Below are positions 15,804 to 63,963 of a DNA stretch of 63,963 nt, one piece after another. Below the pieces are notes generated by a model. It was not told where the DNA came from. It searched no databases and saw nothing but the letters and a program-made list of their open reading frames with translations. This DNA comes from Chloroflexota bacterium. Lineage in GTDB: Bacteria; Chloroflexota; UBA6077; CF-72. The stretch covers positions 1 to 63,963 of the forward strand of contig JAFAZN010000310.1 in the NCBI GenBank assembly GCA_019239775.1. The letters are read 5' to 3'. Position 1 is the first letter of the stretch. Each line of letters opens with the position of its first letter. The position numbers were made by a program, and so were the translations under genes.

Positions 15804-15806
15804 GGC

Positions 15807-16775: not shown

Positions 16776-16847
16776 CACTGCCGAGATTTGCCCGATAATC
16801 AATAGTGCAAGGTACGTTCGATGGTCGCACGTGGCGGCAGGAAAGAG

Positions 16848-16863: not shown

Positions 16864-16971
16864 GGATGAGGGGCTTGAACGCAACACACGCAACACCGAT
16901 CCTCAACCACCAACGCATTCTGATACACCACTAATTCACACGGACGAATCGGAACACACTGGGAGGTCACA

Positions 16972-42693: not shown

Positions 42694-43557
42694 ATGGTCC
42701 GAGCCGTGTGCGTTGCCAGCGCATGGGTGCTGGCGCTGTCCGTTTGGCTATTTCCGGTAACGGCTGCACGGGCTCAAAGCCGCCCGCTGGCTGTCCATGT
42801 GCTCGACGCGGGCGCGGGCGACGCGACGTGGTTAGCAACGCCCGACATGAGCACCGTCGTCGTGCTGGAGTGCGGCACGACCGGCTATGGGCGCCAGTTC
42901 CTATCGTTACTGCTGGCCTCGGGCGTTCAGAGAATCGACGTGCTCGCTCCGACGTCTGCGAGACCGGAGGTCGTCGGCGGCTGCACCGATCTCCTGCAGG
43001 GTCTGCCGGTCGGCCAGCTCTGGCTCACCGGCCAGACCGACCCGTCGACCAGTTGGCGGACCTTCCAGGCGAGTTACCAGGCGGACGGACTCCAGCCAAA
43101 CTACTGGCGGGCAGGTGCCGATCCAGTCGCCTGGGGCGACCTCTCAGCCCAGGCATTCAATCCAGGAGCCGTAGTACCAGGCGCACCGCTGGATCCGTTC
43201 GACGACAGTCTTGCGCTGTTCCTCCAGTATGGCGCTGCACGAATGGTGGTGCTCGGCGGACTTCGCGCCAATGGCCAGTCCGCCGCCGTCCAGGCGGGCC
43301 TACCTCAGGCGTCCGTCCTGAAAACGGCAGTCCATGACGACCGTCAGCTCCCATCCGCAACGTTGCTGAACGCAGTCACGCCGCAGGTGTTGGTGCTGAG
43401 TGCACCTTCGAACGCAAGTGGCTTAGCCAGTATCGGCGTGCCGCAAGTGTGTTCGACCGCCTCCGGAGCTGTCGCCATCAACCTCCCAGCCGATGGCACG
43501 CCGCCGCTCGCGGTGAACGTGCGCAATCAAGCCTGCTCGCTCAACGCCAATGCTTGA
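42694..43557 (+). CDS. Secreted MBL-fold (ComEC-like) protein lacking the metal-binding histidines
   Basis: 287 residues with a signal peptide (AWVLALSVWLFPVTAARAQS). The mature part begins HVLDAGAGDATWLATP, matching the HFIDVGQGDAxLIxxP opening of ComEC-type metallo-beta-lactamase-fold domains. The position where THxHxDH should be reads APTSARPEVVGG. All metal-binding histidines there are missing, so it is probably a non-catalytic pseudoenzyme, possibly ligand-binding. It overlaps the following STAND-like gene by eight bases, implying a functional pair. Ribosome binding site GGGGGAG lies about 15 bases upstream. Confidence 0.72.
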   Translation: MVRAVCVASAWVLALSVWLFPVTAARAQSRPLAVHVLDAGAGDATWLATPDMSTVVVLECGTTGYGRQFLSLLLASGVQRIDVLAPTSARPEVVGGCTDLLQGLPVGQLWLTGQTDPSTSWRTFQASYQADGLQPNYWRAGADPVAWGDLSAQAFNPGAVVPGAPLDPFDDSLALFLQYGAARMVVLGGLRANGQSAAVQAGLPQASVLKTAVHDDRQLPSATLLNAVTPQVLVLSAPSNASGLASIGVPQVCSTASGAVAINLPADGTPPLAVNVRNQACSLNANA

Positions 43558-47955: not shown

Positions 47956-49086
47956 ATGACAACGACAGCGACGACAACCGAACAGGTCATCTCCGGTCTG
48001 GAAGGCGTGCTGGCCACCGAATCGTCGATCTGCTTCATCGACGGCCACGCGGGCGTGCTCGAGTACCGCGGCTACAACATCCACGACATTGCCGAGCGCG
48101 TGCCGTTCGAGGACGTGGTGTTCCTCCTGTGGGAGGCTCGGCTGCCCGATGCAGCGGAGGCGAAGACCTTCCGTGCCGAGCTTGCGGCGCTGCGCGCACC
48201 GGCGGGACAGGTGATTGACGCACTGCGGCTGGTGCCCAGCTCGGCGCATCCGATGGCCGCCCTGCGCGCAGCAGTAGCGATGCTCGCCGCGTGCGATCCC
48301 CACCAGGAGGCGCAGGGCCGTGCCGCGAACGTTCTCAAGGCGAAGCGCCTCACAGCGCAAATGGCGACGCTCGTCGCAGCCCAGCATCGCCTCGCCCAGG
48401 GCTTGCCGCTGATCCCGCCAGACCCCGCGCGCAGCCACGCCGAAGATCTGCTCCGAATGCTCAATGGAAAAGATCCGGACGCCGAGAGCGTGCAGGCCCT
48501 CGACATCGTCCTGAACCTGTATGCCGAGCACGAGCTCAACGCATCGACCTTCACCGCGCGCGTCATCACTGGCACCCTCGCCGACGCGTACTCGGCGATC
48601 ATCGGCGCGATTGGCGCGCTGAAAGGCCCGCTGCATGGTGGGGCGGTCGATGACGTGCAGCGCACGCTCATGGAGATCGGCTCGGCTGATCGCGTCCGGC
48701 CCTGGGTTGAGGAAGCGTTAGCGGCAAAGCGCAAGGTGCCGGGTTTCGGCCACCGCGTGTACCGCGTGCTGGACCCACGCGCGGTGCATCTGCGTGCGAT
48801 GATGGAGCGGCTTGCCCGCGCCAACGGCGACACGCGCTGGGTGGACATTGCGCTCGCGCTCCAGGACGAGCTCAAGCAACGCAAGAACCTGAATGCCAAC
48901 GTCGATTACTACGCCGCACCGGTGCTGTATTACCTCGGATTCCCACTGAACCTGTTCACCAGCCTGATTACGGCCAGCCGCATTGCCGGCTGGATGGCGC
49001 ACGTGCTCGAGCAATACGACAACAATCGGCTGATTCGTCCGCGCGCTCGCTACGTCGGCGCCCACGAACTGGCTTTCAGCCGCTAA
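47956..49086 (+). CDS. Citrate/2-methylcitrate synthase family protein
   Basis: A 376-residue short citrate synthase (type II/PrpC size). Motifs: SSICFIDGHAGVLEYRGYNI at the N-terminus, ELNASTFTARVITGT, GALKGPLHGGA, VPGFGHRVY (catalytic His) and NVDYYAAPVLYYLGFP (catalytic Asp). The AGGAG-type ribosome binding site lies upstream of the ATG. It is followed by PrpF-like and aconitase-like genes with overlapping codons, so 2-methylcitrate formation from propionyl-CoA is the likely role. Plain citrate synthase activity cannot be excluded. Confidence 0.9.
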   Translation: MTTTATTTEQVISGLEGVLATESSICFIDGHAGVLEYRGYNIHDIAERVPFEDVVFLLWEARLPDAAEAKTFRAELAALRAPAGQVIDALRLVPSSAHPMAALRAAVAMLAACDPHQEAQGRAANVLKAKRLTAQMATLVAAQHRLAQGLPLIPPDPARSHAEDLLRMLNGKDPDAESVQALDIVLNLYAEHELNASTFTARVITGTLADAYSAIIGAIGALKGPLHGGAVDDVQRTLMEIGSADRVRPWVEEALAAKRKVPGFGHRVYRVLDPRAVHLRAMMERLARANGDTRWVDIALALQDELKQRKNLNANVDYYAAPVLYYLGFPLNLFTSLITASRIAGWMAHVLEQYDNNRLIRPRARYVGAHELAFSR

Positions 49087-50186
49087 TGGGGCAGGTGGCG
49101 GTGCCGGCCGCCTTCTGGCGCGGCGGCACCAGTCGAGCCGTCCTGTTCAAGCAGGACGACCTCGCTCGGTTCGATACCCGCCAACGCGATCGCATCGTCC
49201 TGGCTGCGCTGGGCAGTCCGGATCCGGGTGGACGCCAGGTGGATGGACTAGGCGGAGGCATCTCATCGCTTTCGAAGGTTTGCATCCTCGATTCGACTGG
49301 CGATGAGGTGACGTTCACCTTTGGCCAGGTGGACGTGCTGCAACCGGTGGTTGATTGGACCGGGACGTGCGGCAACATGTCGGCGGCGGTTGGACCGTTT
49401 GCCATCGAGGCCGGCTGGATTCCACCGCGCGCTCCGCTCACCGAGGTACCGGTGCTCGCCACGAACGTGCAAAAGCGCTACATCGCGCAGGTGCCCACAC
49501 CCGATGGTGAACTTTCGCTGGATGGTGACTACGCCATCGACGGTGTTCCGGGCACGGCTGCACGGATCGGTCTGAAATGGCTCGACCCGAGTGGTACCCA
49601 GGGGCGCGGACCACTTCCCACCGGCCAGCCATGCCAGCGCGTGGATGGTCTCGACGTCTCGATCGTGGACGTTGCCAATCCATTCGTGTTTCTGCGCGCC
49701 TCCGACGTTGGTCTCACCGGATCGGAAACTCCGCTGGAGATCGAGTCCGACCCCGAGGTGATGGCCCGCCTGGAGTCGATCCGCGCGGCGGCGGCGCACC
49801 TCATCGGCCTGGCTGGTCTGCAAGCCATCCCGAAAGTCGCCATACTCGCGCCGGCCGCAAATGGCGTGGACATCGTTGCGCGAGCGGTGTCGATGCAGCG
49901 CATTCACCGCACGTTCCCCGCCACCGGCGCGATGTGCCTCGCAGCCGCCGTTGTCCTGCCTGGCACCATTGCGCACGAGATCGCGAAATCATCCGATGTC
50001 GTGGAGCGAACGGTCCGCATCGGGCATCCGGCAGGCGTAATCGAGATCGGCGTCGAGCTGGAACGACGGAGTGGCGAATGGGTGGTATGTAGCGCCTCCA
50101 CCTCGCGCACCGCGCGGAAAATCATGGATGGTCAAGTGTACGTGCCATCAGGCTACCTGGCTGATCACGCGTGGTTCGACCGGTGA
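49086..50186 (+). CDS. prpF: PrpF-like aconitate isomerase
   Basis: A 366-residue protein of the PrpF (diaminopimelate epimerase-like) fold. It shows PAAFWRGGTSRAVLFKQDDL, the first active-site Cys region GTCGNMSAAVGPFAIE and HRTFPATGAMCLAAA near the second. PrpF converts the trans-2-methylaconitate made by AcnD to the cis form in the AcnD-type methylcitrate cycle. It starts with TAATG overlapping the synthase stop and overlaps the aconitase by GTGA. No PrpB lyase is visible in the window. Confidence 0.88.
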   Translation: MGQVAVPAAFWRGGTSRAVLFKQDDLARFDTRQRDRIVLAALGSPDPGGRQVDGLGGGISSLSKVCILDSTGDEVTFTFGQVDVLQPVVDWTGTCGNMSAAVGPFAIEAGWIPPRAPLTEVPVLATNVQKRYIAQVPTPDGELSLDGDYAIDGVPGTAARIGLKWLDPSGTQGRGPLPTGQPCQRVDGLDVSIVDVANPFVFLRASDVGLTGSETPLEIESDPEVMARLESIRAAAAHLIGLAGLQAIPKVAILAPAANGVDIVARAVSMQRIHRTFPATGAMCLAAAVVLPGTIAHEIAKSSDVVERTVRIGHPAGVIEIGVELERRSGEWVVCSASTSRTARKIMDGQVYVPSGYLADHAWFDR

Positions 50187-52108
50187 ACCTCGCGCAGAAG
50201 ATTCTGGCAGCCCATCTCGTCGAGGGGAAGCTCGAGCCGGGCGAAGAAATCGCGATACGTATCGATCAAACCCTGACGCAGGACGCCACCGGCACGGCGA
50301 CCTATCTCCAGTTCGAGGCGATGGGTGTCCCGCGCGTGCGGACCAGGTTCTCTGTCAGCTACGTAGATCACCAGCTGATGCAGGCCGACTTCAAAAACGC
50401 GGACGACCACCTGTACCTGCAAGACGTTGCCGCGAAGTACGGCATTTACTACTCGCGACCCGGCAATGGCATCTGCCACCAGGTCCACCTGGAGCGCTTC
50501 GGCGTACCGGGCGAAACGCTCCTCGGCTCCGACAGCCACACACCGATGTGCGGAGCTCTTGGCATGCTTGCGCTCGGTGCGGGTGGACTGGATGTCGCGA
50601 CGGCGATGGCCGGCGCGCCGTACTACCTCAGAATGCCCCGCATCCTGGGTGTCGAGCTTGTGGGCGAACTGTCTCCCTGGGTATCGGCCAAGGATGTCAT
50701 CTTCGAACTGCTGCGGCAGTTGACCGTCAAGGGTGGTGTTGGCTGGTTGCTGGAGTATTTCGGTCCGGGCGTTGCCTCGCTCAGTGTGACGGAACGTGCC
50801 ACCATCGCCAATATGGGCGCGGAGCTGGGCGCCACCACGTCTCTGTTTCCGTCCGACGAAGTGACTCGTAGATTTCTGCGCGCGCAGCAGCGCGAGCAGC
50901 ATTTCTCGCCGCAATCGGCGGATCCCGACTCCACCTACGACCGTGTCATCGCCGTAAATCTGAGTGCGCTCGAACCGCTGATCGCGCAACCGGGCAGTCC
51001 AGACGCAGTGGTTCCCATTCACGCGGCGGCCGGCACGCCGGTGGACCAGGTCGCCGTTGGCAGCTGTACTAACTCATCGTTTCAGGACCTCGCAACCATC
51101 GCCAGCATTCTGCGCGGACGTGCGATCCACCCGCGTGTGAGCATGATGGTGAGCCCCGGCTCGCGTCAGGTTTACGAGATGGCCGCGCGCTCAGGCATTC
51201 TCACGGACCTGATCGCTTCCGGTGCCCGCATCCTGGAGTCCGGTTGCGGACCGTGCGCCGGCATGGGCGGGGCGCCATCGACTGGCGGCGTCTCGGTCCG
51301 TTCGTTCAATCGAAACTTTCCTGGCAGGTCCGGCACGGTCGATGCGGGCGTGTACCTCGCCAGTCCAGCGGTGTGCGCGGCCGTCGCGCTGGCAGGTGAG
51401 ATTGTCGACCCGCGCGAGCTGGGCGACCCGGTGGCGTTCGAGCCGCCAGAGGCCTACGTGGTGGATGACCGCATGGTCCTGCCGCCGCCGGAGGATCCCG
51501 CCACGGTGGTGATCCGTCGTGGGCCGAATATCCAACCGATACCAACGCGACCACCACTCCAGGAGCCGCTTCGCGGGCAAGTGCTGATCAAGCTCGGCGA
51601 CAACATCTCCACGGACCAGATCATTCAAGCCGGCATGGAAACCCTGCCCTTGCGGTCCAACGTTCCGGCCTCCGCCCAGTATGTTTTCACACGAGTCGAT
51701 CCCACGTTCGTGGAGCGAGCGCAGCAGCTCGGCGGCGGCTTCATCCTCGCCGGCAATAATTACGGTCAGGGCAGCTCGCGCGAGATTGCAGCGCTTGGGC
51801 CGATGTACCTGGGCATCAAGGCGGTCCTGGCCAGATCCTTTGCGCGGATCCACGCCGCGAATCTTGCCAACTTCGGCATCGTGCCGCTGACATTTCTCGA
51901 TCCCGCGGACTACGACGCGGTTGACACCGGTGATGACCTGGAGGTTGTCGGCATCCGCGAATCTGTCGCGGTGGTCCACAACCGGACGCGACGGACCACC
52001 CTGCGCATGCGCATCGACCTGGCGCCGCGCGCCCACAACGCGATGCTCGCCGGCGGACTGCTCACCTACATCGGCTCATTGGCAACCACCGAAACAGCGC
52101 GCGCGTGA
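50183..52108 (+). CDS. Aconitase-family hydratase (AcnD-like)
   Basis: 641 residues from the GTG overlapping the PrpF stop (GTGA); a GTG four codons upstream is the alternative. The 4Fe-4S ligands are in GSCTNSS and SGCGPCAGMGG. Substrate motifs are GSDSHTPMCGALG in the large domain and NNYGQGSSREIAALGP in the swivel domain. It is shorter than AcnA and closer in size and order to archaeal/mitochondrial-type aconitases. Coupling to PrpF indicates dehydration of 2-methylcitrate. It also overlaps the next gene by GTGA. Confidence 0.9.
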   Translation: MNLAQKILAAHLVEGKLEPGEEIAIRIDQTLTQDATGTATYLQFEAMGVPRVRTRFSVSYVDHQLMQADFKNADDHLYLQDVAAKYGIYYSRPGNGICHQVHLERFGVPGETLLGSDSHTPMCGALGMLALGAGGLDVATAMAGAPYYLRMPRILGVELVGELSPWVSAKDVIFELLRQLTVKGGVGWLLEYFGPGVASLSVTERATIANMGAELGATTSLFPSDEVTRRFLRAQQREQHFSPQSADPDSTYDRVIAVNLSALEPLIAQPGSPDAVVPIHAAAGTPVDQVAVGSCTNSSFQDLATIASILRGRAIHPRVSMMVSPGSRQVYEMAARSGILTDLIASGARILESGCGPCAGMGGAPSTGGVSVRSFNRNFPGRSGTVDAGVYLASPAVCAAVALAGEIVDPRELGDPVAFEPPEAYVVDDRMVLPPPEDPATVVIRRGPNIQPIPTRPPLQEPLRGQVLIKLGDNISTDQIIQAGMETLPLRSNVPASAQYVFTRVDPTFVERAQQLGGGFILAGNNYGQGSSREIAALGPMYLGIKAVLARSFARIHAANLANFGIVPLTFLDPADYDAVDTGDDLEVVGIRESVAVVHNRTRRTTLRMRIDLAPRAHNAMLAGGLLTYIGSLATTETARA

Positions 52109-53130
52109 GCACCCTGCCGCTGCTGCCCACCACCACGGTTGGGTCTTTGGGAAAGCCTGGCTGGTGGTTCGGCGCGTGGGAACTGGAGGCCAGCGGCCGT
52201 TTTGGTCCGGCCGATGTCCAGGAGATGTTGGACGACGCCGTCGATATCGCCCTGCTCGATCAGCAGCGCGCTGGCATCGACATCGTCACTGACGGCGAAC
52301 ACCGCCGCAAAGATGGCTATGTCGACGGCTACTACGAGCTACTCGGCGGGCTGCAAGCACTGCCCGCCCGGCGGTTGGCGGGTGCCTGGGGTTACGACCA
52401 GCAAACCCGTTACCACGCTATTGCGCCGATCCAACTGCCGCCTGGCGGCCTTGGTCTGGCGGAGGATTTTCGATTCCTGCGTTCCCGCACGCAGCAGCCC
52501 ATCAAGGTCACGCTCCCGGGTCCGATGACGCTTGGCTCGCGAATCGACCCGGGCGACGCGTACCCTGACCGTTCGGCCGTGTTCGAGTTTTTCGCCGAGG
52601 TTGTCAATGCGGAGCTGAAGGCGTGCGTCGCCGCCGGAGCGGACTTCGTCCAGCTGGATGAGCCGTGCCGCACCGGCCTCACCGGCCAGGAAATGGCGCG
52701 CCTCTATAATCGCGCCGTCGACGGCGTGAACGCACACCTGGCATTTCATATTTGCTTCGGCAACCGGTTCGGGCGTGGCCGCTTCCAGCGCACCTATGCT
52801 CACCTGTTCCCGTCCATCCTGGAGGCAAACTGCCACCAGTTCGTGCTGGAGTTCGCCTCGCGCGAAATGAGCGAGGTGGACCTCGCGGCACAGCTCGCCG
52901 ACCGCGAGCTCGGCGCCGGCATTGTAGACGTCAAGAGCTTCTATCCCGAAACCGCGGAGGATGTCGCGCTTCGCCTCGAAGCAGTCCTGCGCCACATCCG
53001 ACCGGAGCAGGTCTACGTCAATCCCGACTGCGGCTTCGGCTGGAGCCCCCGCGGCATGTGTCAGTCGAAGCTGGTGGCCATGGTCGCCGGCACGCGGTTG
53101 GTTCGCGACCGCCTCTCCTCCATTTCTTGA
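52105..53130 (+). CDS. MetE C-terminal-domain-like (cobalamin-independent methionine synthase family) protein
   Basis: A 341-residue TIM-barrel protein with GTG start overlapping the aconitase stop. The opening TTTVGSLGKPGWW and DIVTDGEHRRKDGYVDGYY, the LDEPC loop, HICFGN and PDCGFGW supply the His, Cys and Cys zinc-site residues of the MetE/epoxyalkane:CoM transferase superfamily. Stand-alone members act in methyl or CoM transfer. Why it is coupled to a methylcitrate-type operon is unclear; it may instead cleave or modify a thiol product. Confidence 0.82.
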   Translation: MSTLPLLPTTTVGSLGKPGWWFGAWELEASGRFGPADVQEMLDDAVDIALLDQQRAGIDIVTDGEHRRKDGYVDGYYELLGGLQALPARRLAGAWGYDQQTRYHAIAPIQLPPGGLGLAEDFRFLRSRTQQPIKVTLPGPMTLGSRIDPGDAYPDRSAVFEFFAEVVNAELKACVAAGADFVQLDEPCRTGLTGQEMARLYNRAVDGVNAHLAFHICFGNRFGRGRFQRTYAHLFPSILEANCHQFVLEFASREMSEVDLAAQLADRELGAGIVDVKSFYPETAEDVALRLEAVLRHIRPEQVYVNPDCGFGWSPRGMCQSKLVAMVAGTRLVRDRLSSIS

Positions 53131-53133
53131 TCC

Positions 53134-53805
53134 ATGTGTGGACGTTTCAATCTGACCGATCCGCAGGACATCATCCAGCGGTTCGGGTTCATGGACTGGT
53201 CAGACAAACGTATCGAGCCGCGCTTCAACATCGCGCCCTCGCAGGAGATTTTGACCATTGTCCAGCTGCCATTGCAGCAGCCGGAGGCGCAAACCGCCGT
53301 CTGGGGGCTCAAGCCATTCTGGCTCGCCAAAGGGGTGAAAAAACCGCCGCCGATCAATGCACGGGTGGAGGCGCTGGGTTCGGGCGCAATGTTCCGCGAC
53401 GCGTTGCGCTGCCTCATTCCGGCAACCGGCTTCTACGAGTGGCGTCAAAAGCAACCCATGCACATCCGCCTGCGTGGCGGCGGACTGTTCATGTTCGCTG
53501 GCCTGTGGCTGCCAGACCGACGTCCCACTGCGGCCATCCTGACCACGAAACCCAACGAGCTCATGGCAACAATCCACACGCGCATGCCGGTCATCCTGCG
53601 ACCCGAAGACGAATTACGGTGGCTGGACCCAGGTGTCGATGCAGATGAAGCCAAACGGCTCGCACTTGCCCCATTTCCCGCGGACTTGATGGAGGCGTAT
53701 GCCGTCAGACCGCTGGTGAACTCCTGGGAGAACGAAGGCCCCGAGTTGGTCGAGCCAGCACCACCAGACGAGGCCGTGCCACAGCAGTTGCCGCTGCTCT
53801 CCTAA
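53134..53805 (+). CDS. SRAP domain protein (HMCES/YedK-like)
   Basis: A 223-residue SOS-response-associated peptidase-type protein that covalently traps abasic sites in single-stranded DNA. The catalytic Cys2 follows the initiator Met (MCGRFNL). Other active-site residues are Asn75 (INARVE), Glu102 (GFYEW) and His148 (HTRMP). It follows the MetE-like gene by 3 bases and is probably read through from it. It is unrelated in function to its operon neighbours. Confidence 0.95.
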   Translation: MCGRFNLTDPQDIIQRFGFMDWSDKRIEPRFNIAPSQEILTIVQLPLQQPEAQTAVWGLKPFWLAKGVKKPPPINARVEALGSGAMFRDALRCLIPATGFYEWRQKQPMHIRLRGGGLFMFAGLWLPDRRPTAAILTTKPNELMATIHTRMPVILRPEDELRWLDPGVDADEAKRLALAPFPADLMEAYAVRPLVNSWENEGPELVEPAPPDEAVPQQLPLLS

Positions 53806-53903: not shown

Positions 53904-55841
53904 CTATCCGGTTGCTGGCTCCAGCGTATTGATAAACAGGCCCGAGGTCCGATGCCAGCTGGACGGGAGCGTGTATGGATTCTTCTCAGTAGGCCAGTTC
54001 GTCCAGTACGTCGTGTTCGGTGTAATGAAAATGTACCGATTGATGAGAGGGATCGTTGGCAAATTAGGGAACCAGAGCTCCATCGCCTGGTGATAGAGCG
54101 TCATAAACTTCGGATCGTTAGGCGCGGTGAGCGCCATGGTCTCCAGCAGTTTGTCGAAATCGGGATTCTTCCAGCGGTACGCGTGACCCGCGGGAGCGGG
54201 CTGCCCGGTTGCAGCCGCATAGCGGCTGTGAAGAAAGTTCAGCGTCGCATACGGGTCGCGCGCACTACCGCCAGGAATATCGAACCAGGCGTCGATATCG
54301 CCTTGCGGAATGATCGTGGAGGCATTCGACGGCGATTTGAATGTGGTATCGAATCCGCCTTTGCGCAGCTGTTCAACAATGACCGGCGCGATGTCGGTGA
54401 AGAACGGCGGTGTCGCGATCAGCACAATGCTGAAGTGATCTGCGCCTTTTGCCCAGAAGCCATCCGCATTCTTCGCATAGCCCTTCGATTGCATGATCTG
54501 CGCGGTCTTGTCCAGGTCGAACGCATCGACCGGATACGCCTGCATCAGATCGTTGACGGCATCCCAGTACGGGATGAACGTTCCGTACCGAGGGAACGGT
54601 AGTTTCGTCTTCTCGCCGATTCCGTGACTGCCGATCGCGACAATCTCGTCGCGATTGAGGCTGTGGTTGACGGCCCAGCGAATATCCGCGTCGTCGAACG
54701 GCGGCCGTGAACAATTCACCGCAATTGAAGTCACAGTGGAGATGTCCAGGGCGCCGTACGGTGGGGAATTGCCCTCCGTCCAACCGATGAGCTTGGGATT
54801 ACGGGCCAGCGCAGTCGGGACGGTGTACGCCGTCTGAAAGCCGTGTGCGGCGTCGACCTCATTGGCGGTAACCAGCTCCATCTGCTTGTCGTCCATGTAG
54901 TTTGGAACGATGGTGACCCGCTGCATCTTCGGCAACGGGTGAAAGCCGGTCTTTGCGCCCCACCAGTCGTCCCGCCGATCCCAGTAGCGTTGCTGTGGAT
55001 TTTCCAGGCTCAGCTTCCATGGTCCCGTGACGACAGGCCAACCCTTGGAAATGTCATCGTTTGTGAACGTGGCCGGATCCTGACCTTCCCAGATGTGTCT
55101 CGGCACGATCGGGATGCCAATGTCCGAGTGCCACTGAAAATAGTCGAACAGGAAGCGTGGGTTGCCGCTCGTAAGCGTGATGTTGACCGTCAGTGGATCT
55201 GGCGTCGTCACGTCCTTCACCCACGTTTGCATATCGACCGAGAAGTTCACTTTCGGCGCATTGCTTTTGAGCATGTTCAGCGTAAATACGACGTCATCAG
55301 CCGTAAAGGGCTGCCCGTCGCTCCACGTCACGCCTTGACGGAGTTTGATCGAGAGCTGGGTGGAGTCGGCATTGTAGGTGTAGCTCTCCGCGAGCCACGG
55401 GATCTCACCGTCGTTGCAGGCGAGGCCAGGCGCGCCACACACCTGGTCGGTGTGCCACATGTCATAGAAGTACAGTGGCTCGAAAGCGAACTGCCAGCCG
55501 TTGCGAAAGGCGCCAATGACAAAAGGATTCATGACGCCGACATCGGTGAACTGGTCCACAGAGTCAGACAGTGACAGGACCAACGTTTGCGCACGGGCAA
55601 CATCAGCCGGCGCCCCAGTCGTGGTCACCGGCTGGGAGGTGATCCCGCTCCCTGGCGCTCCAGTCGGCGCAGTCGCATTGGCTGAAGACGCCGGTGCCTG
55701 TGCCGCCGGCGCGGCGCTCGAAGAGGTCGGTGCGGCGGTCTGTGGCGCGGCCGGCGAACAGGCCGCCAGGACAGTCGCCGCGCCTCCGATCGCTATCGTG
55801 GCAAGTGCGCGCCGTCGCGAGATTCGCAGATCACCGGACAT
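53904..55841 (-). CDS. Oligopeptide/nickel-type ABC substrate-binding lipoprotein
   Basis: 645 residues from the ATG at 55841, chosen because GGGAGG precedes it. The signal is twin-arginine-like (SRRRALATIAIGG) with lipobox LAAC (Cys28), followed by an Ala/Pro/Ser tether. The SBP_bac_5 domain has LRQGVTWSDGQPFTADDVVFTLN and is of usual length. It is divergent from two DppB/DppC-like permease genes and likely feeds them. It could bind peptides, opines or sugars. Confidence 0.93.
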   Translation of the reverse strand: MSGDLRISRRRALATIAIGGAATVLAACSPAAPQTAAPTSSSAAPAAQAPASSANATAPTGAPGSGITSQPVTTTGAPADVARAQTLVLSLSDSVDQFTDVGVMNPFVIGAFRNGWQFAFEPLYFYDMWHTDQVCGAPGLACNDGEIPWLAESYTYNADSTQLSIKLRQGVTWSDGQPFTADDVVFTLNMLKSNAPKVNFSVDMQTWVKDVTTPDPLTVNITLTSGNPRFLFDYFQWHSDIGIPIVPRHIWEGQDPATFTNDDISKGWPVVTGPWKLSLENPQQRYWDRRDDWWGAKTGFHPLPKMQRVTIVPNYMDDKQMELVTANEVDAAHGFQTAYTVPTALARNPKLIGWTEGNSPPYGALDISTVTSIAVNCSRPPFDDADIRWAVNHSLNRDEIVAIGSHGIGEKTKLPFPRYGTFIPYWDAVNDLMQAYPVDAFDLDKTAQIMQSKGYAKNADGFWAKGADHFSIVLIATPPFFTDIAPVIVEQLRKGGFDTTFKSPSNASTIIPQGDIDAWFDIPGGSARDPYATLNFLHSRYAAATGQPAPAGHAYRWKNPDFDKLLETMALTAPNDPKFMTLYHQAMELWFPNLPTIPLINRYIFITPNTTYWTNWPTEKNPYTLPSSWHRTSGLFINTLEPATG

Positions 55842-55939
55842 CTCTACGCCCTCCCTCGTTGATCGGACAGCGCTGCAGCCCGATTGCATCGCCAGGCACG
55901 GGAAGTGTAGGTTGAGAGCCGGGAACGGTCAACGTCGGT

Positions 55940-56941
55940 ATGCGTGTCTACCTATCTCGACGGTTGCTCCAGTTCGTGGCGGTGCTGTGGGGCGCGGCGA
56001 CACTGAACTTCTTCATTCCGCGGCTGGCGCCCGGCGACCCGGTGCGCAGTCAGCTCGTGCAGATGGCAAGCCAGGGCGGCTATCTCCAGCAAGGCATCGA
56101 AGCCATGGTCCAGTCGTATGACCAGCAGTTCGGTCTGGATCAGCCGTTGTGGTTGCAGTACGTACGTTACCTCGGAAACGTACTGCACCTGGATTTCGGT
56201 TACTCGCTGTCTCAATACCCAATCAAAGTCATCACGCTCATCGAGGCCGCCCTGCCGTGGACGATCGGACTGCTGCTCGCATCAACGCTGATCGCGTTCT
56301 TCGTCGGAACGCTCCTCGGAGCAGTTATCGGCTGGACTCGCTCGCCGCGTTTTCTGCGGTTCTTGATCCTGCCAATGCTCGTCTTCTCGTCGATTCCCTA
56401 CTACTTGCTCGGGCTCATCCTGGTCTACGCGCTGGCGGTGACGCACCCGGTGTTCCCGCTTTCAGGCGGATACTCAATCAGTACGGCGCCAGCCCTGACC
56501 GTCCCGTTCGTCCTGGACGTCGCGCGCCATGCGCTGTTACCGGCGTTGTCAATTGTGCTCGCGGGCATGGGCTTCTGGGGGCTCGGCATGCGGGGGATGA
56601 TGGTTACCACCGAGGGCGAGGATTACATGCTCTTCGCTGAGGCAAAAGGCTTGAAAGGCACGCGCATTCTGCTCGGGTACTCGGTGCGCAACGCCATCCT
56701 GCCGCAATTCACTTCACTTGCTATCGCGCTCGGCCATATTGTGTCCGGTTCGGTTATCGTCGAAATCGTCTTCGGCTTTCCTGGCGTCGGCTCTTTGCTC
56801 GTCAAAGCCATATCGGGTTCCGACTATTTCCTGATCTATGGCATCGTCTTCGTGATCATCGTCGCAATCGGCATCGCGACGCTCTTGATCGACCTCATGT
56901 ATCCGTTGATCGATCCGCGCATCGCCCACCGGACGACGTGA
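55940..56941 (+). CDS. ABC transporter permease, DppB-like
   Basis: A 333-residue inner-membrane permease of the BPD_transp_1 type. It has the N-terminal MRVYLSRRLLQFVAVLWGAATLNFFIPRLAPGDP block found in DppB/GsiC proteins, six helices, and the EAA loop EAKGLKGTRILLGYSVRNAI that docks the ATPase. It starts 98 bases from the divergent SBP gene and is followed after 9 bases by the second permease. Confidence 0.93.
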   Translation: MRVYLSRRLLQFVAVLWGAATLNFFIPRLAPGDPVRSQLVQMASQGGYLQQGIEAMVQSYDQQFGLDQPLWLQYVRYLGNVLHLDFGYSLSQYPIKVITLIEAALPWTIGLLLASTLIAFFVGTLLGAVIGWTRSPRFLRFLILPMLVFSSIPYYLLGLILVYALAVTHPVFPLSGGYSISTAPALTVPFVLDVARHALLPALSIVLAGMGFWGLGMRGMMVTTEGEDYMLFAEAKGLKGTRILLGYSVRNAILPQFTSLAIALGHIVSGSVIVEIVFGFPGVGSLLVKAISGSDYFLIYGIVFVIIVAIGIATLLIDLMYPLIDPRIAHRTT

Positions 56942-56950
56942 GCATCTGAC

Positions 56951-57862
56951 ATGGCAGCCGGAACCGTTATCCAGAGCCGCCGCATCGACGTCCTTGCTCT
57001 GTGGCGCTCCCGAAGCGGAGGCGTGCTTACGTATTTCTCACGGAATGCCAGTCTGAGCGCTGGGGCAATTCTGCTGCTGGTGTTGCTGCTCATCTGTCTC
57101 GTCGGTCCGCTGTTCATCAATGTTGATCACGCACGCGCCACCTCGGTCCTACCGGACCAGGCGCCCTCACTACAGTTTCCGCTCGGCACGGATGACCAGG
57201 GGCGTGACCTGGCCGCGGTGCTGGTTGCTGGACTACCGCTCACCCTCCGCATCGGATTCATTGCTGGAGGTGTTGGACTGGGCATCGGCATCTTGCTGGG
57301 CCTTCTCGCCGGCTACCGAGGTGGTGTGTTCGACATCGCAGTCCGCATGATCGTCGATACGCTGTTGACCGTACCCGGTCTGCTGGTTCTGATTATCATT
57401 GCCGACTCCATCAAGGGTGTGCTCAGTATCAACTCGATGGCGCTGATCGTGGCGTCGCTAGCCTGGATGCAGCCCACGCGCACCATTCGGGCGCAGGTTT
57501 TAACCCTCCGGGAACGCGCCTACGTGCAGGTTGCCCGACTGAATGGTATGGGCACCCTGGCAATCATCGTGCGCGAGCTTCTGCCGAATCTTCTGCCATA
57601 TGTGGCGGCCAGCTTTGTGGGTGCCGTTGGATCGGCCGTGCTGGCATCGATCGGCCTCGAAGCCCTTGGACTGGGCCCCCAGGACGCGCCGGATATCGGC
57701 ATGACCATCTACTGGGCGATCACGTTCAACGCGCTACTACGCGGTCTCTGGTGGTGGTGGACAACACCAATCATTGCAGTCATGACTCTCTTTATCGGGT
57801 TGTTTCTGGTGAGCTCCGGGCTTGACGCAATCGCCAACCCACGCTTGCGCCGCCATCCGTAA
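56951..57862 (+). CDS. ABC transporter permease, DppC-like
   Basis: A 303-residue second permease. It contains LGTDDQGRDLAAVLVAGLPLTLRIGFIAGG, the DppC/GsiD hallmark, and the EAA-type loop YVQVARLNGMGTLAIIVRELLPNLLPY. The ATPase subunits (DppD/DppF) are absent; the next gene is on the other strand. A shared ATPase elsewhere is needed for function. Confidence 0.93.
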   Translation: MAAGTVIQSRRIDVLALWRSRSGGVLTYFSRNASLSAGAILLLVLLLICLVGPLFINVDHARATSVLPDQAPSLQFPLGTDDQGRDLAAVLVAGLPLTLRIGFIAGGVGLGIGILLGLLAGYRGGVFDIAVRMIVDTLLTVPGLLVLIIIADSIKGVLSINSMALIVASLAWMQPTRTIRAQVLTLRERAYVQVARLNGMGTLAIIVRELLPNLLPYVAASFVGAVGSAVLASIGLEALGLGPQDAPDIGMTIYWAITFNALLRGLWWWWTTPIIAVMTLFIGLFLVSSGLDAIANPRLRRHP

Positions 57863-57887: not shown

Positions 57888-59312
57888 TTACGTGTGGGGA
57901 AATATCAGCGACTTGATCACGACCGGCACGGCGCCGGAGGTGGGGATCAGCGCGCCAATATCGATGTAGTCGAACTCGCGCAGCTCCACCCCATCGATTG
58001 AGACAATCGGTAACTCCAAGCGGAGCTCCTCGCGCAGATGGAGTCCGAGCAGCCCGCCAATGTCGTTATCGAACACCAGGATTAGCGGATGCCCATGAGC
58101 AACGTGCAGTTGCATGGCATCCAGGGCGCCAGCACAAAACGCGTTGATGCGCTTGTACGTGGCGGAGCCTTCCCACCGGGCCGCGATGGCAACCGGAGTG
58201 CGCGCCTCCAGAAGGTCGAAGCGGTGCAGCGCGCCGCGGACTGAAGCGGCAACACGCTCGGGCGAGAACGGTTCGTCTGCCCACGCGATGTTCGGCATCA
58301 CAACGGGCACGTTGCGAACAGGGACCACGTCTTCCGCGGATAAGTAGATGGTGCTGCCCGAGACCTGGATGGTGTACTGCGAGGCACCGATAACGGTTGC
58401 GCGAATTCCGCCAGACGTCTCGACGATTGGTGCACCGAGCTCCGGCGTGCGCTCCAGGAACACGTCGGCCAGGAGCGGTCCCAGGTCGCCGAAGGCGCGT
58501 TCTGCGCGACGGTAAATGTACTCGGAGACTCCGCCCGAAAAGGTCACGTGCTCGATGCCGCGTCGATTGCGGAGTGGCTCCGTCCGGAGGAGGTGCGAGC
58601 CGTGCGTACAGCCACCAACCGCGATCTCCCCAAGGAGCTGGTCGACCATGTACTCGGCGAACAAACGCAACTGCGATTGCGTGACCGCTGTTCCAACCTG
58701 GAGTGACACATTCAGGCGTTGCGCGATGTCCAGGGCGGCCGGCTCCAGCCGCGTAACGACAAGGTTCGCGTCGTAGGCGATCAGACGTGCGCCGACATCG
58801 ATGGCCATCAGCTCAGCCGTGCGTCCTTCGCGACAGATCACCACTTTGGTGGTGCCACCGCCGACGTCCACATTCATGACAGCACCGCGCGTTTTCGACA
58901 AGGCGACCGCGCCGGATCCGTGCGCAGCCATGGTCGCCTCGAGATTGTCACCCGCGCTGACGGCGACAAACCGGCCAGCTTCGGCAGCGAACAGCTCCGC
59001 GATCGCGCGCGCATTGTCGCGCAGCAGTGCAACACCCGTCAGGATCAGCGCACCGGTGTCCACTTCGTCGCGCGTGAGTTTCGCAGCAGCATATTGCTGC
59101 TCTACGAAGTCGCCCAGGATCTGTTCATCAATAGTGGTTACGTCTCGGTAGGGAGTCAACAGAATGTCTGATTGAAAGAGGACGTCGCGCCGAACAGTGA
59201 CGTACCGGTTGTCCTGCCGCTCCAGCTCCAGTCGCGAAAACAGCAGATGGGAGGTAGACGAGCCGATATCCACCCCCACGCTGGTGAGGACAATGCGGTC
59301 CTCCTCCGCCAT
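57888..59312 (-). CDS. EutA-like ethanolamine ammonia-lyase reactivating factor
   Basis: 474 residues from the ATG at 59312, chosen because the family begins just after it; the frame is open further upstream. The ASKHA-type ATPase core is visible: VGVDIGSSTSHLLFSRL (phosphate 1) and MNVDVGGGTTKVV (phosphate 2). Further EutA-like blocks are VTFSGGVSEYIY and ETSGGIRATVIGASQYTIQVSG. EutA reactivates B12-dependent ethanolamine ammonia-lyase, but no eutB or eutC occurs in the window. Neighbours are an acetamidase and a bicupin, so the target may be a different B12 enzyme or a lyase elsewhere. Confidence 0.85.
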   Translation of the reverse strand: MAEEDRIVLTSVGVDIGSSTSHLLFSRLELERQDNRYVTVRRDVLFQSDILLTPYRDVTTIDEQILGDFVEQQYAAAKLTRDEVDTGALILTGVALLRDNARAIAELFAAEAGRFVAVSAGDNLEATMAAHGSGAVALSKTRGAVMNVDVGGGTTKVVICREGRTAELMAIDVGARLIAYDANLVVTRLEPAALDIAQRLNVSLQVGTAVTQSQLRLFAEYMVDQLLGEIAVGGCTHGSHLLRTEPLRNRRGIEHVTFSGGVSEYIYRRAERAFGDLGPLLADVFLERTPELGAPIVETSGGIRATVIGASQYTIQVSGSTIYLSAEDVVPVRNVPVVMPNIAWADEPFSPERVAASVRGALHRFDLLEARTPVAIAARWEGSATYKRINAFCAGALDAMQLHVAHGHPLILVFDNDIGGLLGLHLREELRLELPIVSIDGVELREFDYIDIGALIPTSGAVPVVIKSLIFPHT

Positions 59313-59335
59313 ATTGCGGCTCGGCGCGGTGAAAC

Positions 59336-60277
59336 TCACTGGAGCACGGACAGCGGAAAGAACGCGGTGACGGTCCAGTTCGGTGCGTCCACGATCTGGC
59401 TGATGCGCAGCTCCGCACACACGCTTGCGAGCACATAGGCCTGATCCGCATCGAGGTGTGTGGTCTGGCAGAGCCACTCCACCAGATACCGCGTTGCGTT
59501 CTTGGCCGCCTCCATCAGGTCAGGCGCGTGCGCCATACACCCGTGGTACGCGCCCCCAATGTTCGTTGGTGGTTGCAACAGTTGGAGCTGTGGCTCGCGC
59601 ACCGGAGTGTCACTGAGTGACAACCGCAGCGTCGTGGTGCTGTCCATCTCGATCGCCGTAATGCAGACTTCGCCATCGCCCTGTGCGCCGTGCGCATCCC
59701 CCACCGAGAAGAGGGCCCCCTCGACCTCGATCGGCAAGTACAGCGTAGTTCCCGCGGTCAGTTGGCGCACGTCCATGTTGCCGCCCACGCGACGCGGCGG
59801 AATGGTGCTGTGTTGGCCTGGCTCCGCGAGCGCCAGGCCCATCACGCCGCAAAACGGTGCCAGGGGCACGCTGACGCCGCGCATGCCGCGCGCGGCGTTG
59901 TTTTCTTGGAGGTCCCAGATCTGGAGGAAGTGGTGCCGAAAGTCCTCCGGCAGTAAACCGCGTTGTGGGCCGAACGAAGTCCAGCCCCAGGCCGCTGGAC
60001 GGACCTCCTGGATTTCCACCACCAAGGTCTGACCTGGTTTTGCACCATTGATGGCAATTGGACCTGTCAGCGCGTGGCCGACGCCAGGTTTGCGCACCCG
60101 CTTGGGCAAATCATCTGAGGTCCAATTGCGCTGGATAGCGTGCCCACTGGCGTCCCAGGTCTCAATGGTGATCTCCGCGCCGGCCTCCACCTCGAGCACC
60201 GGCGACAAGCTGTTATCCCAGGCAAAATGCAGCCGCTCCGCAGGGAGATAGTGGCTCAACGCCCGACCGCCCGCCAT
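59336..60277 (-). CDS. Acetamidase/formamidase family protein
   Basis: A 313-residue FmdA/AmdA-type amidase. Motifs: LTGPIAINGAKPGQTLVVEI, PLAPFCGVMGLA, PRRVGGNMDVRQLTAGTTLYLPI and VGDAHGAQGDGEVC, containing the conserved Asp, His and Glu of the metal-dependent active site. It releases ammonia from short amides. It follows the bicupin gene and precedes the EutA-like gene on the same strand (23-base gap), suggesting a nitrogen-acquisition unit. Confidence 0.92.
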   Translation of the reverse strand: MAGGRALSHYLPAERLHFAWDNSLSPVLEVEAGAEITIETWDASGHAIQRNWTSDDLPKRVRKPGVGHALTGPIAINGAKPGQTLVVEIQEVRPAAWGWTSFGPQRGLLPEDFRHHFLQIWDLQENNAARGMRGVSVPLAPFCGVMGLALAEPGQHSTIPPRRVGGNMDVRQLTAGTTLYLPIEVEGALFSVGDAHGAQGDGEVCITAIEMDSTTTLRLSLSDTPVREPQLQLLQPPTNIGGAYHGCMAHAPDLMEAAKNATRYLVEWLCQTTHLDADQAYVLASVCAELRISQIVDAPNWTVTAFFPLSVLQ

Positions 60278-60303
60278 CTAGCAATGGCCCCACTGGCAAG
60301 GAC

Positions 60304-60318
60304 TCCACTGTAAGTGGA
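60304..60318. promoter_or_regulatory. Palindrome upstream of the acetamidase gene
   Basis: TCCACTGTAAGTGGA, six-base arms around GTA, 27 bases before the acetamidase start on the reverse strand and after the bicupin gene. It may be an operator or the stem of a weak terminator. A looser relative (ACTCCACAATAAGTGG) lies at 42600. Confidence 0.4.
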
Positions 60319-60426
60319 CTGTTGTTTCTCCAGGTTTGGAGCGCTGGGCCCTGCAGCACGCGGAGCGCAACTACCCTGTGGAAGGAGGATTCGTCTGGTG
60401 AGAGAGTTCATCACCCGGAACGCCCG

Positions 60427-61638
60427 TCAGGCGAAGGCGCTTTCAGGCATGGTGAACTCAACCCCTTCGGCCGCCAGGCGCCGCTTGTACTCATCGCGAA
60501 TAAACGGATCCTCCTCGGGGTACAAAATGGTGCGCCCGCCCTCGTGGATCCCGAACAGGTTGCCAGCCTTGACGTCCTCGTCGCGGTCGTCGCCGATCCC
60601 CCAGCGCGCGTGGGGTCCGCCCCAGTAGTTGATGACCCGCAGTGGATCGCGAGCAACCCCAAAGTGCTGGTGGAACCAGTTGCCACCCCCAGGCGCCGCG
60701 GCCACGAGCCCGCCTGGCACGTACTCCAGCTCGCGAACCTGGTCGGCTTTGCCGTCTTTCCATGGAGTCGGTCCGACCTCCACGGGCCAGTTATATGTGT
60801 AGCCCTTGCCGCGGAGGCACACCAGCACCGCACCTGATGCGTGGAAGTGCGCCTTGGAGTACCGTCCACTCGGATATTGCGACACAAATCCGCCGGTCGA
60901 TGCATCCTGGATAAAGCCACTGAACGTGGGCTGAATCCGTCGATAGCCGGGCGCACGCTGGTTGTCGAGCGGAAGCTCCGCATTCACAATGTCAGGAAAC
61001 ACGTTGGAGCGAATAGCCGCGCGGCCGCGCACCGGCTCCATTTCGAGGTCCGACTTCGGCTTGAAGAAGTCGTCGGTCATGTCGTACCGCTCGCGGAAAT
61101 CCCAGTCGTTTTCGAAAATGAAGCGGTGGCTCTGGAAAATGTTGAACACGCCTGGAGCGTTGTTGGCGGCCAGCAGCAACGCCGGTGATCCGGTGGCATT
61201 CACCAGCCGATAGTTGGCGTTGATCGGAATCATGAACAGGCTGCCAGGTTGCCATTCGAAAACGCGAGGTTTGTCGGAGCCGCGCCAGACCTCGGTGGTG
61301 CCACGACCTTCGATTACCAGGAAGAACTCGTCGTAAATGTGTCTCTCGGCATTGGTGGCGTCGCCGGCGGGGACTTCCAGGACGTACATGCCTTTGAGGC
61401 CTTCAAGGCCGTCGAGATAAAGAAAGGCGCCGCGAGCGTTGCGCCGCTTCCAGGCGCCAAGCGTGACGTCGCGGGTGTCGCGAACGCCGATACCTCGCAG
61501 GACCGGGATGCCTTCTTCTTCCATCCAGCGCTCGTACGGGCTATGCGAACGTTTGTAGACGAAATAGCCGGCGGGTTTGTCACCGCTGGGTTCGACCCAT
61601 GTACCGAATTGATCCCTGTCCTGCTGCGTTGCGGTCAT
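60427..61638 (-). CDS. Bicupin protein (annotated family: ethanolamine ammonia-lyase-activating type)
   Basis: 403 residues from the ATG at 61638; the frame is open further upstream without family character. Two cupin barrels: the first around GMYVLEVPAGDATNAERHIYDEFFLVIEGRG and EWQPGSLFMIPINA, the second around SKAHFHASGAVLVCLRGKGY and VAAAPGGGNWFHQHF. The length and the GIPVLRGIGVRDTR segment recall cupins that public databases label ethanolamine ammonia-lyase-activating proteins. Proximity to an EutA-like gene supports that association. No catalytic activity can be assigned. Confidence 0.8.
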   Translation of the reverse strand: MTATQQDRDQFGTWVEPSGDKPAGYFVYKRSHSPYERWMEEEGIPVLRGIGVRDTRDVTLGAWKRRNARGAFLYLDGLEGLKGMYVLEVPAGDATNAERHIYDEFFLVIEGRGTTEVWRGSDKPRVFEWQPGSLFMIPINANYRLVNATGSPALLLAANNAPGVFNIFQSHRFIFENDWDFRERYDMTDDFFKPKSDLEMEPVRGRAAIRSNVFPDIVNAELPLDNQRAPGYRRIQPTFSGFIQDASTGGFVSQYPSGRYSKAHFHASGAVLVCLRGKGYTYNWPVEVGPTPWKDGKADQVRELEYVPGGLVAAAPGGGNWFHQHFGVARDPLRVINYWGGPHARWGIGDDRDEDVKAGNLFGIHEGGRTILYPEEDPFIRDEYKRRLAAEGVEFTMPESAFA

Positions 61639-62008: not shown

Positions 62009-63316
62009 ATGCTGAAGAAGGAAGAGAACGAGCTGATCACCCGCGTCGGCCCGGGCACGCCGATGGGCAACTTGATGCGGGAGTACTGGGTTCCGGCCCT
62101 CCTTTCATCAGAGTTGGGTGCGCCTGATTGTGATCCTGTCCGCGTCATGCTTCTCGGCGAGCAGCTGATCGCTTTTCGCGATTCCAACGGCAGGCCAGGC
62201 TTGATCCAGAACAACTGCCCGCATCGTGGCGCAAGCCTGTTCTTCGGCCGCAACGAAGAATCAGGCTTGCGGTGCGTCTATCACGGCTGGAAGTTCGACA
62301 CCGCGGGCAACTGCGTCGACATGCCGAACGAACCAGCCGAGTCCGACTTCCGACAGAAGGTCAAGGCAACCGCGTACCCGTGCACCGAGCGCGGCGGCAT
62401 CGTGTGGACCTATATGGGTCCAAGAAAAGAGCCGCCGCCGATGCCCGACCTCGAGGCCAATGCGCTCGAAGGCGCGACCGCCACAGCCTTCCAGCTCGAT
62501 GGCAACTGGCTGCAGATCCTCGAAGGTGACATCGATACCACCCACGTCGGCTTCCTCCACTACGGTGGTCTCCGAGCCGAAGATCAGCCGCCAGGCAGCT
62601 TCTCGGACTATCAGCTGCGCCAGAAGCCAGCCCTCTTCGAGGTGATCGATACACCAGGCGGTGTCGCCTATGGTGCGAGGCGGCCAGGCCCGCCAGGCGA
62701 GCAGTACTGGCGCATCGCCCAGTTCTGCTTACCGTTCTATACCTTCACTCCGCCTGGTGTGCTGGGCGTGAAGAAGAACAACGGCGCGCGTGTGCCGATG
62801 GACGACTACCACACCATGAACTTCTTCATGAACGTGGGTGGCCGTCGACCAGGCGCAGGGGTGTTGAACGCGGTGTTCCCCGACCGCCTCCCGAACACTA
62901 CCGACTGGTTTGGCCGAAACCGGTTCGCGCCGAATCTCGCCAACGACTTCATGATCGATCGCGAAATGCAGCGGACCAACAAGGGCGGCGGCGGGTTCAC
63001 GGGCATCGCCAGCCTGCTGATGCAGGACGCGGCGATGACCACGAGCATGGGGCCGATCTTCGATCGCTCCACCGAGCACCTGGGCTCCACCGACGCCATG
63101 GTCATCCAGGTGCGCCGCCGCCTGATCAACGCCGTCAGGGCGCACGTGGAGCGGGGCATCACCCCGAGCGGTGTCGACAATCCTGAGGTCTACCAGGTTC
63201 GTTCGGGCGGCGTGTTCCTGCCGATCGGCGCGGATTGGGTCGAAGCCACGCGCGAGCTGCGCAAGGCGTACGTTGAACACCCGGAGCTCGATCCAACACT
63301 GAACGGACCCCTCTGA
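62009..63316 (+). CDS. Rieske-type aromatic ring-hydroxylating oxygenase, alpha subunit
   Basis: A 435-residue oxygenase. The Rieske 2Fe-2S site is CPHRGAS...CVYHGWKF (Cys-His, Cys-His). The mononuclear iron site lies in EGDIDTTHVGFLHYG, with a bridging Asp and two His. Phthalate/phenoxybenzoate dioxygenase or vanillate demethylase-type alpha subunits have this length. A strong AAGGAGG precedes the ATG. The gene overlaps a substrate-binding lipoprotein by one base (TGATG), so an imported aromatic is the likely substrate. A reductase is not in view. Confidence 0.93.
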   Translation: MLKKEENELITRVGPGTPMGNLMREYWVPALLSSELGAPDCDPVRVMLLGEQLIAFRDSNGRPGLIQNNCPHRGASLFFGRNEESGLRCVYHGWKFDTAGNCVDMPNEPAESDFRQKVKATAYPCTERGGIVWTYMGPRKEPPPMPDLEANALEGATATAFQLDGNWLQILEGDIDTTHVGFLHYGGLRAEDQPPGSFSDYQLRQKPALFEVIDTPGGVAYGARRPGPPGEQYWRIAQFCLPFYTFTPPGVLGVKKNNGARVPMDDYHTMNFFMNVGGRRPGAGVLNAVFPDRLPNTTDWFGRNRFAPNLANDFMIDREMQRTNKGGGGFTGIASLLMQDAAMTTSMGPIFDRSTEHLGSTDAMVIQVRRRLINAVRAHVERGITPSGVDNPEVYQVRSGGVFLPIGADWVEATRELRKAYVEHPELDPTLNGPL

Positions 63317-63963
63317 TGTGGCGCGTGGCGTCACTGCTGGTCGCACTCGCGACGGTGGTGACGGCGTGCAGCCCAACCACAGCGCCGCCGCCGACGACGC
63401 AGGCGCCAGCGGCTGCCCCCACGAGCGCGCCTGCCGCCACGAGCGCTCCCGCGGTGGCGCCCACGACCAGCGCACCCGGCGCCACCACTGCGGCCACCAA
63501 GCCAGCCGCAACGACCGCGCCAGCAATAACCGCGGCCGCCGCAACAACTGCTCCGGCCGGGCAAGCTGCTGCTGCGCCTGCTTTCACAGGCCAGCCGGTC
63601 TCGCTGCACGTCTCCTACAGCAACCTCATCGCCGACAACCTGCCCGAGTGGCTCGCCTTCGAAAGCGGCATCTTCAAGCAGAACGGCCTGGACGTAAAGC
63701 TCGACAACATTGCCAGCTCCACGGGTATCCCGGCCGTGATCTCAGGTGACGTGCAAATCGGCCACCTCGGTGGGTCCGAAACCCTGAGCGCGACCGTGGC
63801 CGGGGCCGACCTGGTGATCGTGGCCATCACCGGGCCGGTCTATCCGTTCGTATTCATGGCGCCCGCCTCGATCACCAGTACCGATCAGCTCAAGGGCAAG
63901 AAGATCGGCGTCTCGAACATCGGCTCATCCTCGGACATTGCAACCCGAGTCATGCTGACCAAG
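63316..63963 (+). CDS. NMT1/TauA-like substrate-binding lipoprotein, 3'-truncated by the window edge
   Basis: The first 216 codons are present. The ATG overlaps the Rieske stop (TGATG). Signal peptide with lipobox VTAC (Cys18), then a long Ala/Pro/Thr tether to about residue 88. The binding domain begins LHVSYSNLIADNLPEWLAFESGIFKQNGLDV and continues with LKGKKIGVSNIGSSSD. It is a paralogue of the lipoprotein at 32712. Importer components probably follow beyond the window. Confidence 0.88.
   Translation, partial: MWRVASLLVALATVVTACSPTTAPPPTTQAPAAAPTSAPAATSAPAVAPTTSAPGATTAATKPAATTAPAITAAAATTAPAGQAAAAPAFTGQPVSLHVSYSNLIADNLPEWLAFESGIFKQNGLDVKLDNIASSTGIPAVISGDVQIGHLGGSETLSATVAGADLVIVAITGPVYPFVFMAPASITSTDQLKGKKIGVSNIGSSSDIATRVMLTK

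Follow-up and report, generated by a model that had tools for sequence, protein, structure and literature searches.

EutA-like ATPase genes without ethanolamine ammonia-lyase often lie close to bicupin genes in a Chloroflexota bacterium and in other bacteria

Introduction

EutA, the reactivating factor of ethanolamine ammonia-lyase (EutBC), is known to act with a B12 enzyme, on which it exchanges damaged cobalamin; HyuA/AcxA and BadF-type proteins share its fold. A second group of helper proteins, the His-rich metallochaperone nucleoside triphosphatases (NTPases), is represented by the HypB, UreG and CobW types. EutQ, a cupin that has no metal-binding His, is also encoded in canonical eut operons (PMC3483176). 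In this study, we analyzed a stretch of 63,963 nucleotides (hereafter the window) from Chloroflexota bacterium, assembly GCA_019239775.1 (G000). The window is the entire contig JAFAZN010000310.1 (C356), such that contig ends and window ends coincide. It encodes a EutA homologue in a row with an amidase and a bicupin. Very probably, this homologue belongs to a sister family of EutA whose link is to bicupins rather than to ethanolamine; its members are referred to as orphan EutAs.

The initial annotation had described three genes on the same strand, for a EutA-like protein, an acetamidase and a bicupin, and Pfam matches confirmed all of them. On the minus strand, the order of transcription is bicupin (60427..61638), hydrolase of the FmdA_AmdA (acetamidase/formamidase) family (59336..60277) and EutA-like actin-fold ATPase (57888..59339). 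The EutA homologue matches PF06277 over positions 3-474 of 475 (E 6e-115, 385 bits, cut-off 27), the amidase matches PF03069 (E 4e-55, 187.7 bits, cut-off 27), and the cupin matches Cupin_2 with E 2.9e-9, or 1.8e-9 with a shorter reading of its open reading frame (ORF). Outside the window, all genes are ORF-based calls, for which over-extension is possible.

The probable start codon of the EutA gene is the GTG at 59339, and start and amidase stop run into each other as GTGA; owing to this overlap, amidase and EutA are probably translationally coupled. The resulting N-terminus, VSFTAPSRNMAEEDR, is similar to MTFTAPTRDMAEEDR of the same-genus locus L052, a resemblance that supports the GTG start. 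An alternative start, the ATG at 59312, is also possible.

EutA homologues without ethanolamine ammonia-lyase

The lyase is missing, as the initial annotation had noted. EutB was not found in the 7.2 Mb assembly of the window's genome, in which EutC was not searched for separately, and the window EutA stays below the NCBIfam EutA equivalog cut-off (best 325.9 vs 598 bits). EutB is absent from 14 of 15 EutA-bearing genomes, the window's own included; the exception, G054, carries it in a true eut locus. A sample of 400 genomes of the phylum contains 30 with EutA (E 1e-30 or better) and 18 with EutB. Both sets overlap in exactly seven genomes, those with EutA at 536-562 bits. The remaining 23 EutA genomes, with scores of at most 432 bits and some of them with fragments, reveal no EutB in a single case, and 11 genomes have EutB without a EutA at the given threshold. 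Ten genomes or plasmid records were reached via other orphan-EutA loci, three of them plasmids searched as the plasmid alone and one, G406, probably the same genome as G040; nine of the ten are without EutB. On a Sinorhizobium terangae plasmid, EutB is present about 150 kb from the orphan EutA.

In a tree of 68 EutA rows, the EutBC-linked rows form one clade (support 1.0), and the 54 orphans fall on the other side. The EutBC-linked clade is composed of 14 rows, representing 13 distinct genes, from Klebsiella, Clostridioides, Listeria, Cetobacterium, two haloarchaea and relatives in the window's phylum. The window EutA lies outside this clade and groups with the proteins of loci L052, L055 and L060 and with rhizobial plasmid proteins. 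Conservation reaches 95% or more of the 68 rows at 41 positions. Diagnostic positions of the alignment distinguish the two sides, e.g., the residue after GGGT[TS], past the second phosphate loop, which is Lys in 53 of 54 orphans and Asn in all 14 EutBC-linked rows.

With canonical EutA (PF06277), the window protein thus shares the full-length match and the conserved actin-type ATPase motifs; searched against the PDB by sequence, it gave weak actin-family matches only. The orphans differ from canonical EutA by their separate clade, the missing EutBC, the bicupin neighbour, Lys in place of Asn and, in most members, a His-rich N-terminal tail. On a Phyllobacterium record, a clade member carries the annotation ethanolamine ammonia-lyase reactivating factor, which would imply that ethanolamine is used; no ammonia-lyase was found on that record. 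The database label of the window EutA, which likewise denotes a repair factor of the ethanolamine enzyme, is probably wrong.

Orphan EutAs also occur outside the phylum, e.g., in CAVE-383 (Oxalobacteraceae), in whose class EutA is rare (3 of 274 genomes). In one of these three genomes, EutA is a fragment, and its contig of 4.3 kb holds no bicupin. In another one, EutA is directly adjoined by an apparent EutB-EutC fusion ORF of 732 aa (L190:4823-8480), which matches both the EutB and EutC families below their cut-offs.

Linkage of orphan EutAs to bicupins

A bicupin is encoded within 3 kb of EutA in 27 of 38 orphan loci from 14 genomes, the window included, compared with 1.3 loci expected from the bicupin number per genome. 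This set omits the canonical locus L033 and a weak partial match, L003/L071. Orphan loci fetched later contain a bicupin in seven of 12 cases, EutBC-linked loci of the phylum (six and that of G054) in none of seven. In CAVE-383, three of five EutAs have a bicupin within 3 kb, and the second EutA of the window's genome lies between two bicupins. A conserved neighbourhood, which the initial annotation had proposed to look for, is found for the EutA-bicupin pair; the amidase was seen at none of the other loci examined.

The gap in 32 close same-strand pairs measures 57-359 bases. Sequence distances among the EutAs and among their bicupins correlate, species phylogeny being ignored, with r 0.42 in all 32 pairs, r 0.73 in the 24 upstream pairs and r 0.52 in 19 non-redundant upstream pairs (0 of 5000 permutations as high in each case). 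The eight downstream pairs reach r 0.78 (26 of 5000 permutations as high), and 23 non-redundant mixed pairs r 0.31 (20 of 5000). No EutA-bicupin pairing is described in the titles and abstract openings of the open-access papers (PMC) that our searches listed.

The bicupin family is far larger than its EutA-linked set, with at least 583 relatives confirmed, the best 80 of which come from Chloroflexi, Deltaproteobacteria, Alphaproteobacteria and others. In G011, G014, G015 and G040, bicupin paralogues (26-44 per genome) and LigXa-type Rieske genes (15-81) are jointly expanded to an unusual extent. As a separate observation, L163 and L164 show two orphan EutAs in a single stretch of about 8 kb without a bicupin; L163 also contains a Rieske gene (by homology) and a gene of the ornithine-cyclodeaminase family.

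Fold and active site of the bicupin

The best PDB profile match of the window bicupin is 3bu7, a gentisate 1,2-dioxygenase (GDO; 5e-10). When its structural model (predicted local distance difference test, pLDDT, 84.1) is compared with known folds, the ten top VIA rows are salicylate 1,2-dioxygenases (SDO) and GDOs, counting 2d40, with Z scores of 20.1-21.4; the match to 2phd has Z 21.4 and a root-mean-square deviation of 4.8 over 272 aligned residues. The next row is an oxalate decarboxylase (Z 19.5).

According to part of PMC4019311, GDO uses H119, H121 and H160 as ligands and H162 as the acid-base residue. In the window bicupin, H264 and H266 of an HxH motif align with the first two iron ligands, and H323 and H325 of an HQH motif with the third ligand and the acid-base His162, respectively. 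This four-His pattern is present in 119 of 137 bicupin ORFs. The N-terminal cupin of the window protein is without the motif-2 His; in some bicupins, the S. pomeroyi GDO included, both halves hold iron (part of PMC10306065).

Both the alignment and the modelled fold suggest that the bicupin is probably a ring-cleaving dioxygenase of the gentisate/salicylate type. No curated family cut-off is reached, since the window cupin has no NCBIfam match (TIGR02272 and relatives), and a relative scores 37.6 against 650 with TIGR02272. The initial annotation had called the bicupin associated with ethanolamine ammonia-lyase, a label that appears in no search output; an annotated plasmid relative is named "cupin domain-containing protein". 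The suggested link to ammonia release found no support, either, the recurrent partner being a cupin of GDO/SDO-like fold. A relation to EutQ was rejected, too, as no EutQ occurs among the Pfam matches up to E 1 of the window cupin and three relatives. Like the bicupin, EutQ is a cupin whose gene shares an operon with EutA (PMC3483176), but it is a single cupin without metal-binding His, whereas the window encodes a bicupin with the His set.

The His-rich tail and its metal context

At least three His precede the first ATPase motif in 44 of 54 orphans by script, or in about 42 after correction, as the window and L060 were counted through over-long starts alone and other orphans are possibly affected. 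The EutBC-linked EutAs, with N-terminal extensions of 6-16 residues, show this feature in none of 13 genes. Three or more His together with an HxH motif are found in 38 of 54 orphans vs 9 of 162 neighbouring ORFs. Many orphan tails start with MHDD or MHDE, followed by EHxH.

Most orphans resemble the HypB, UreG and CobW types as NTPases that carry a terminal tail rich in His and acidic residues and adjoin a probable metalloenzyme. Those are G3E GTPases, however, whereas the orphan EutAs are of actin fold.

In Phyllobacterium zundukense, a NixA/HoxN-type Ni/Co transporter and NikR are encoded immediately beside EutA (L073:15473-17075). The gene order is Rieske oxygenase, ferredoxin, class II aldolase, bicupin and EutA, followed by the nickel/cobalt transporter and NikR.

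A predicted chaperone role and its rivals

Three features, the kinship with a reactivase, a partner that is probably a metalloenzyme and, in most orphans, a tail of metal-binding appearance, lead us to favour the reading that the orphan EutA quite possibly serves as an ATP-driven reactivation or metal-loading chaperone of the bicupin; partner role, metal and mechanism are predictions. The bicupin would serve to degrade aromatic compounds, or organic compounds related to them, by oxidation, and its metal would fail at times, e.g., when iron, the presumed metal, is oxidised to Fe(III) or when a wrong ion is loaded. By analogy to EutA exchanging damaged cobalamin, the ATPase, of actin/Hsp70 fold, would then contact the bicupin and spend ATP to open it and to release or replace the failed metal, while the tail rich in His, Asp and Glu could hold the replacement metal in most members. 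The real job of the EutA-like ATPase may, hence, be to keep the bicupin supplied with a working metal. That His-tailed, EutA-derived ATPases in general are dedicated metal-insertion and reactivation chaperones for ring-cleaving bicupin dioxygenases of environmental bacteria is a more doubtful extension, in which a reactivase class would have changed its client, a B12 enzyme, for a non-heme metal enzyme.

If the partnership with the cupin is true, a reactivase-type ATPase would exist for a non-heme ring-cleaving enzyme. It would also provide an entry point to a bicupin family of which the organism's relatives have as many as 44 copies per genome. CAVE-383 and the rhizobia make the partnership testable.

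Several observations weigh against this chaperone role. Concerning the linkage, no bicupin lies within 3 kb in 11 of the 38 orphan loci, five of the 12 later loci have none in the stretch read (some being truncated contigs), and in CAVE-383 none is close to two of the five EutAs (L187); the distance correlations take no account of common descent of the species. Of the 80 best bicupin loci, EutA was seen at seven and not at 73 in the stretches read, so that the ATPase is not generally required and would serve a subset. The same-genus locus L052 has kept EutA, Rieske oxygenase and binding protein and is missing bicupin and amidase, and G002 encodes two close, window-like bicupins elsewhere in its genome without a EutA in the stretches read. 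This variation and the non-recurring amidase speak against a strict three-gene unit, with the EutA-bicupin pair remaining as the core. Concerning the proteins, the model of the window EutA is of moderate quality (pLDDT 73.7), and the lowest dioxygenase row of the fold comparison (Z 20.1) counts as tied with oxalate decarboxylase. Although the bicupin resembles GDO and SDO in fold (Z about 21) and in its three His ligands and acid-base His, identity is about 12%, the four-His set lies in the C-terminal cupin, i.e., in the half opposite to their N-terminal catalytic site, and the alignment offers no counterpart of their Arg127. Finally, the His tail, by which the orphans resemble the HypB, UreG and CobW types, is absent from the window EutA and its close relatives, namely from L052, the rhizobial L073-L075 and L187.

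Four other explanations were considered. The orphan EutA could be a pathway enzyme or a substrate-activating ATPase, with the bicupin as its catalytic partner or the next step, which we regard as rather unlikely. The actin fold of the ATPase and the operon-like spacing with the bicupin fit this proposal, as does a weak BcrAD_BadFG match of 22.7 bits, which remains, however, below the cut-off (31.5). One Cys column is kept in 47 of 54 orphans, but the window has Ala there, and a single Cys presumably cannot form a [4Fe-4S] site of the HgdC type. In sequence, moreover, the orphans are closest to a reactivase, and the tail points to the handling of metals.

It is improbable, too, that EutA and bicupin co-occur merely through shuffling of large catabolic islands, with no direct interaction. 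Several genomes do hold greatly expanded sets of bicupins (up to 44) and of LigXa-type Rieske genes (up to 81), and L052 demonstrates that the genes are separable. Yet linkage is strongest where bicupins are few: it comprises three of three in G008, two of two in G007 and the sole one of G005 and of G025, and the short same-strand gaps of the 32 pairs do not suggest shuffling, either.

A further proposal, that the EutA-like protein has as its client another adenosylcobalamin enzyme, with a gene elsewhere in the genome, follows the initial annotation, which had named another B12 enzyme, and is, in our view, even less probable. A client other than ethanolamine ammonia-lyase agrees with our findings, and EutA's known role with a B12 enzyme as well as seven B12-binding matches elsewhere in the window's genome are in favour of B12. 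On the two EutA contigs of this genome, however, no B12-binding match was found. Nor is a B12 family among the 25 listed of 104 Pfam families matched by 102 neighbours (97 proteins hand-picked from a script list of 162, and five from L073). In G040, nine EutA genes face five B12-binding matches, one of which is below cut-off. An ordinary eut cluster whose eutBC genes were missed in an incomplete assembly (91% complete, 507 contigs) can practically be dismissed despite the cupin EutQ of canonical eut operons, considering the absence of EutB from the window's genome and from all 23 sampled genomes with orphan-type EutA, the separate clade, and a cupin unlike EutQ.

Amidase, Rieske oxygenase and wider neighbourhood

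The initial annotation had further proposed an amide/amine pathway fed by neighbouring uptake genes and a Rieske oxygenase. As a theme of the locus, this was abandoned, because a homologue of the amidase was found in none of the other stretches and loci examined. The amidase, which scores 122.8 vs 500 bits for the NCBIfam formamidase equivalog, is a locus-specific addition in the window and perhaps releases an acid or amine substrate.

Divergent from the bicupin, a LigXa-like Rieske oxygenase is encoded at 62009..63316 on the plus strand (PF00355, 1.3e-17; PF19301, 9.3e-25). It shares 42% identity with the Sinorhizobium neighbour, and a Rieske gene adjoins EutA also in rhizobial and same-genus loci. 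This neighbour, which the initial annotation had named, recurs at some loci; within 3 kb, it was found in seven of 59 orphan-type EutA loci, which excludes it as a constant part of the module. As LigXa-type genes are very numerous per genome (43 in the window's genome, 81 in G011), the neighbourhood of Rieske and EutA genes is weak evidence. A Rieske expansion in SAR202 is described in a part of PMC6946804 in which the cupin is not mentioned.

An NMT1/THI5-like ABC substrate-binding lipoprotein, possibly for uptake (63316..63963, plus strand; PF09084, 6.6e-10), follows the Rieske gene and is cut by the contig end; L052 has a similar protein in the same position. On the other side of EutA, 53904..57862 holds an SBP_bac_5 binding protein (minus strand) and two BPD permeases (plus strand). 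In L052, these genes are not found between EutA and the counterpart of window 53134-53805.

The neighbours of orphan EutAs include Rieske oxygenases, class II aldolases, alpha/beta hydrolases, UbiD decarboxylases, LigB-type dioxygenases, molybdopterin dehydrogenases, and NMT1 or SBP5 transporters. At locus L142 of CAVE-383, the genes ahead of EutA encode an FAD aromatic hydroxylase, an FAA hydrolase and a cupin similar to gentisate dioxygenase (TIGR02272 with 7e-55, below cut-off), and a bicupin lies about 1.3 kb downstream.

Other genes of the window

A patatin-like phospholipase (PF01734) adjoins a two-TM effector protein of the SLATT_1/SLATT_3 type at 14481-17048, and this pair looks like part of a defence system. 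The regions 8110-14659 and 25745-28462 encode a TIR-rhodanese protein, a 1692-aa nSTAND1 NTPase with WD40 repeats and a protein with two TIR_2 matches; a second nSTAND1/NACHT-like NTPase lies at 43550-45919. At 47956-53130, a row of genes, citrate synthase-like (by reading only), PrpF-family, aconitase-family and MetE-like, has the appearance of a methylcitrate-type cluster.

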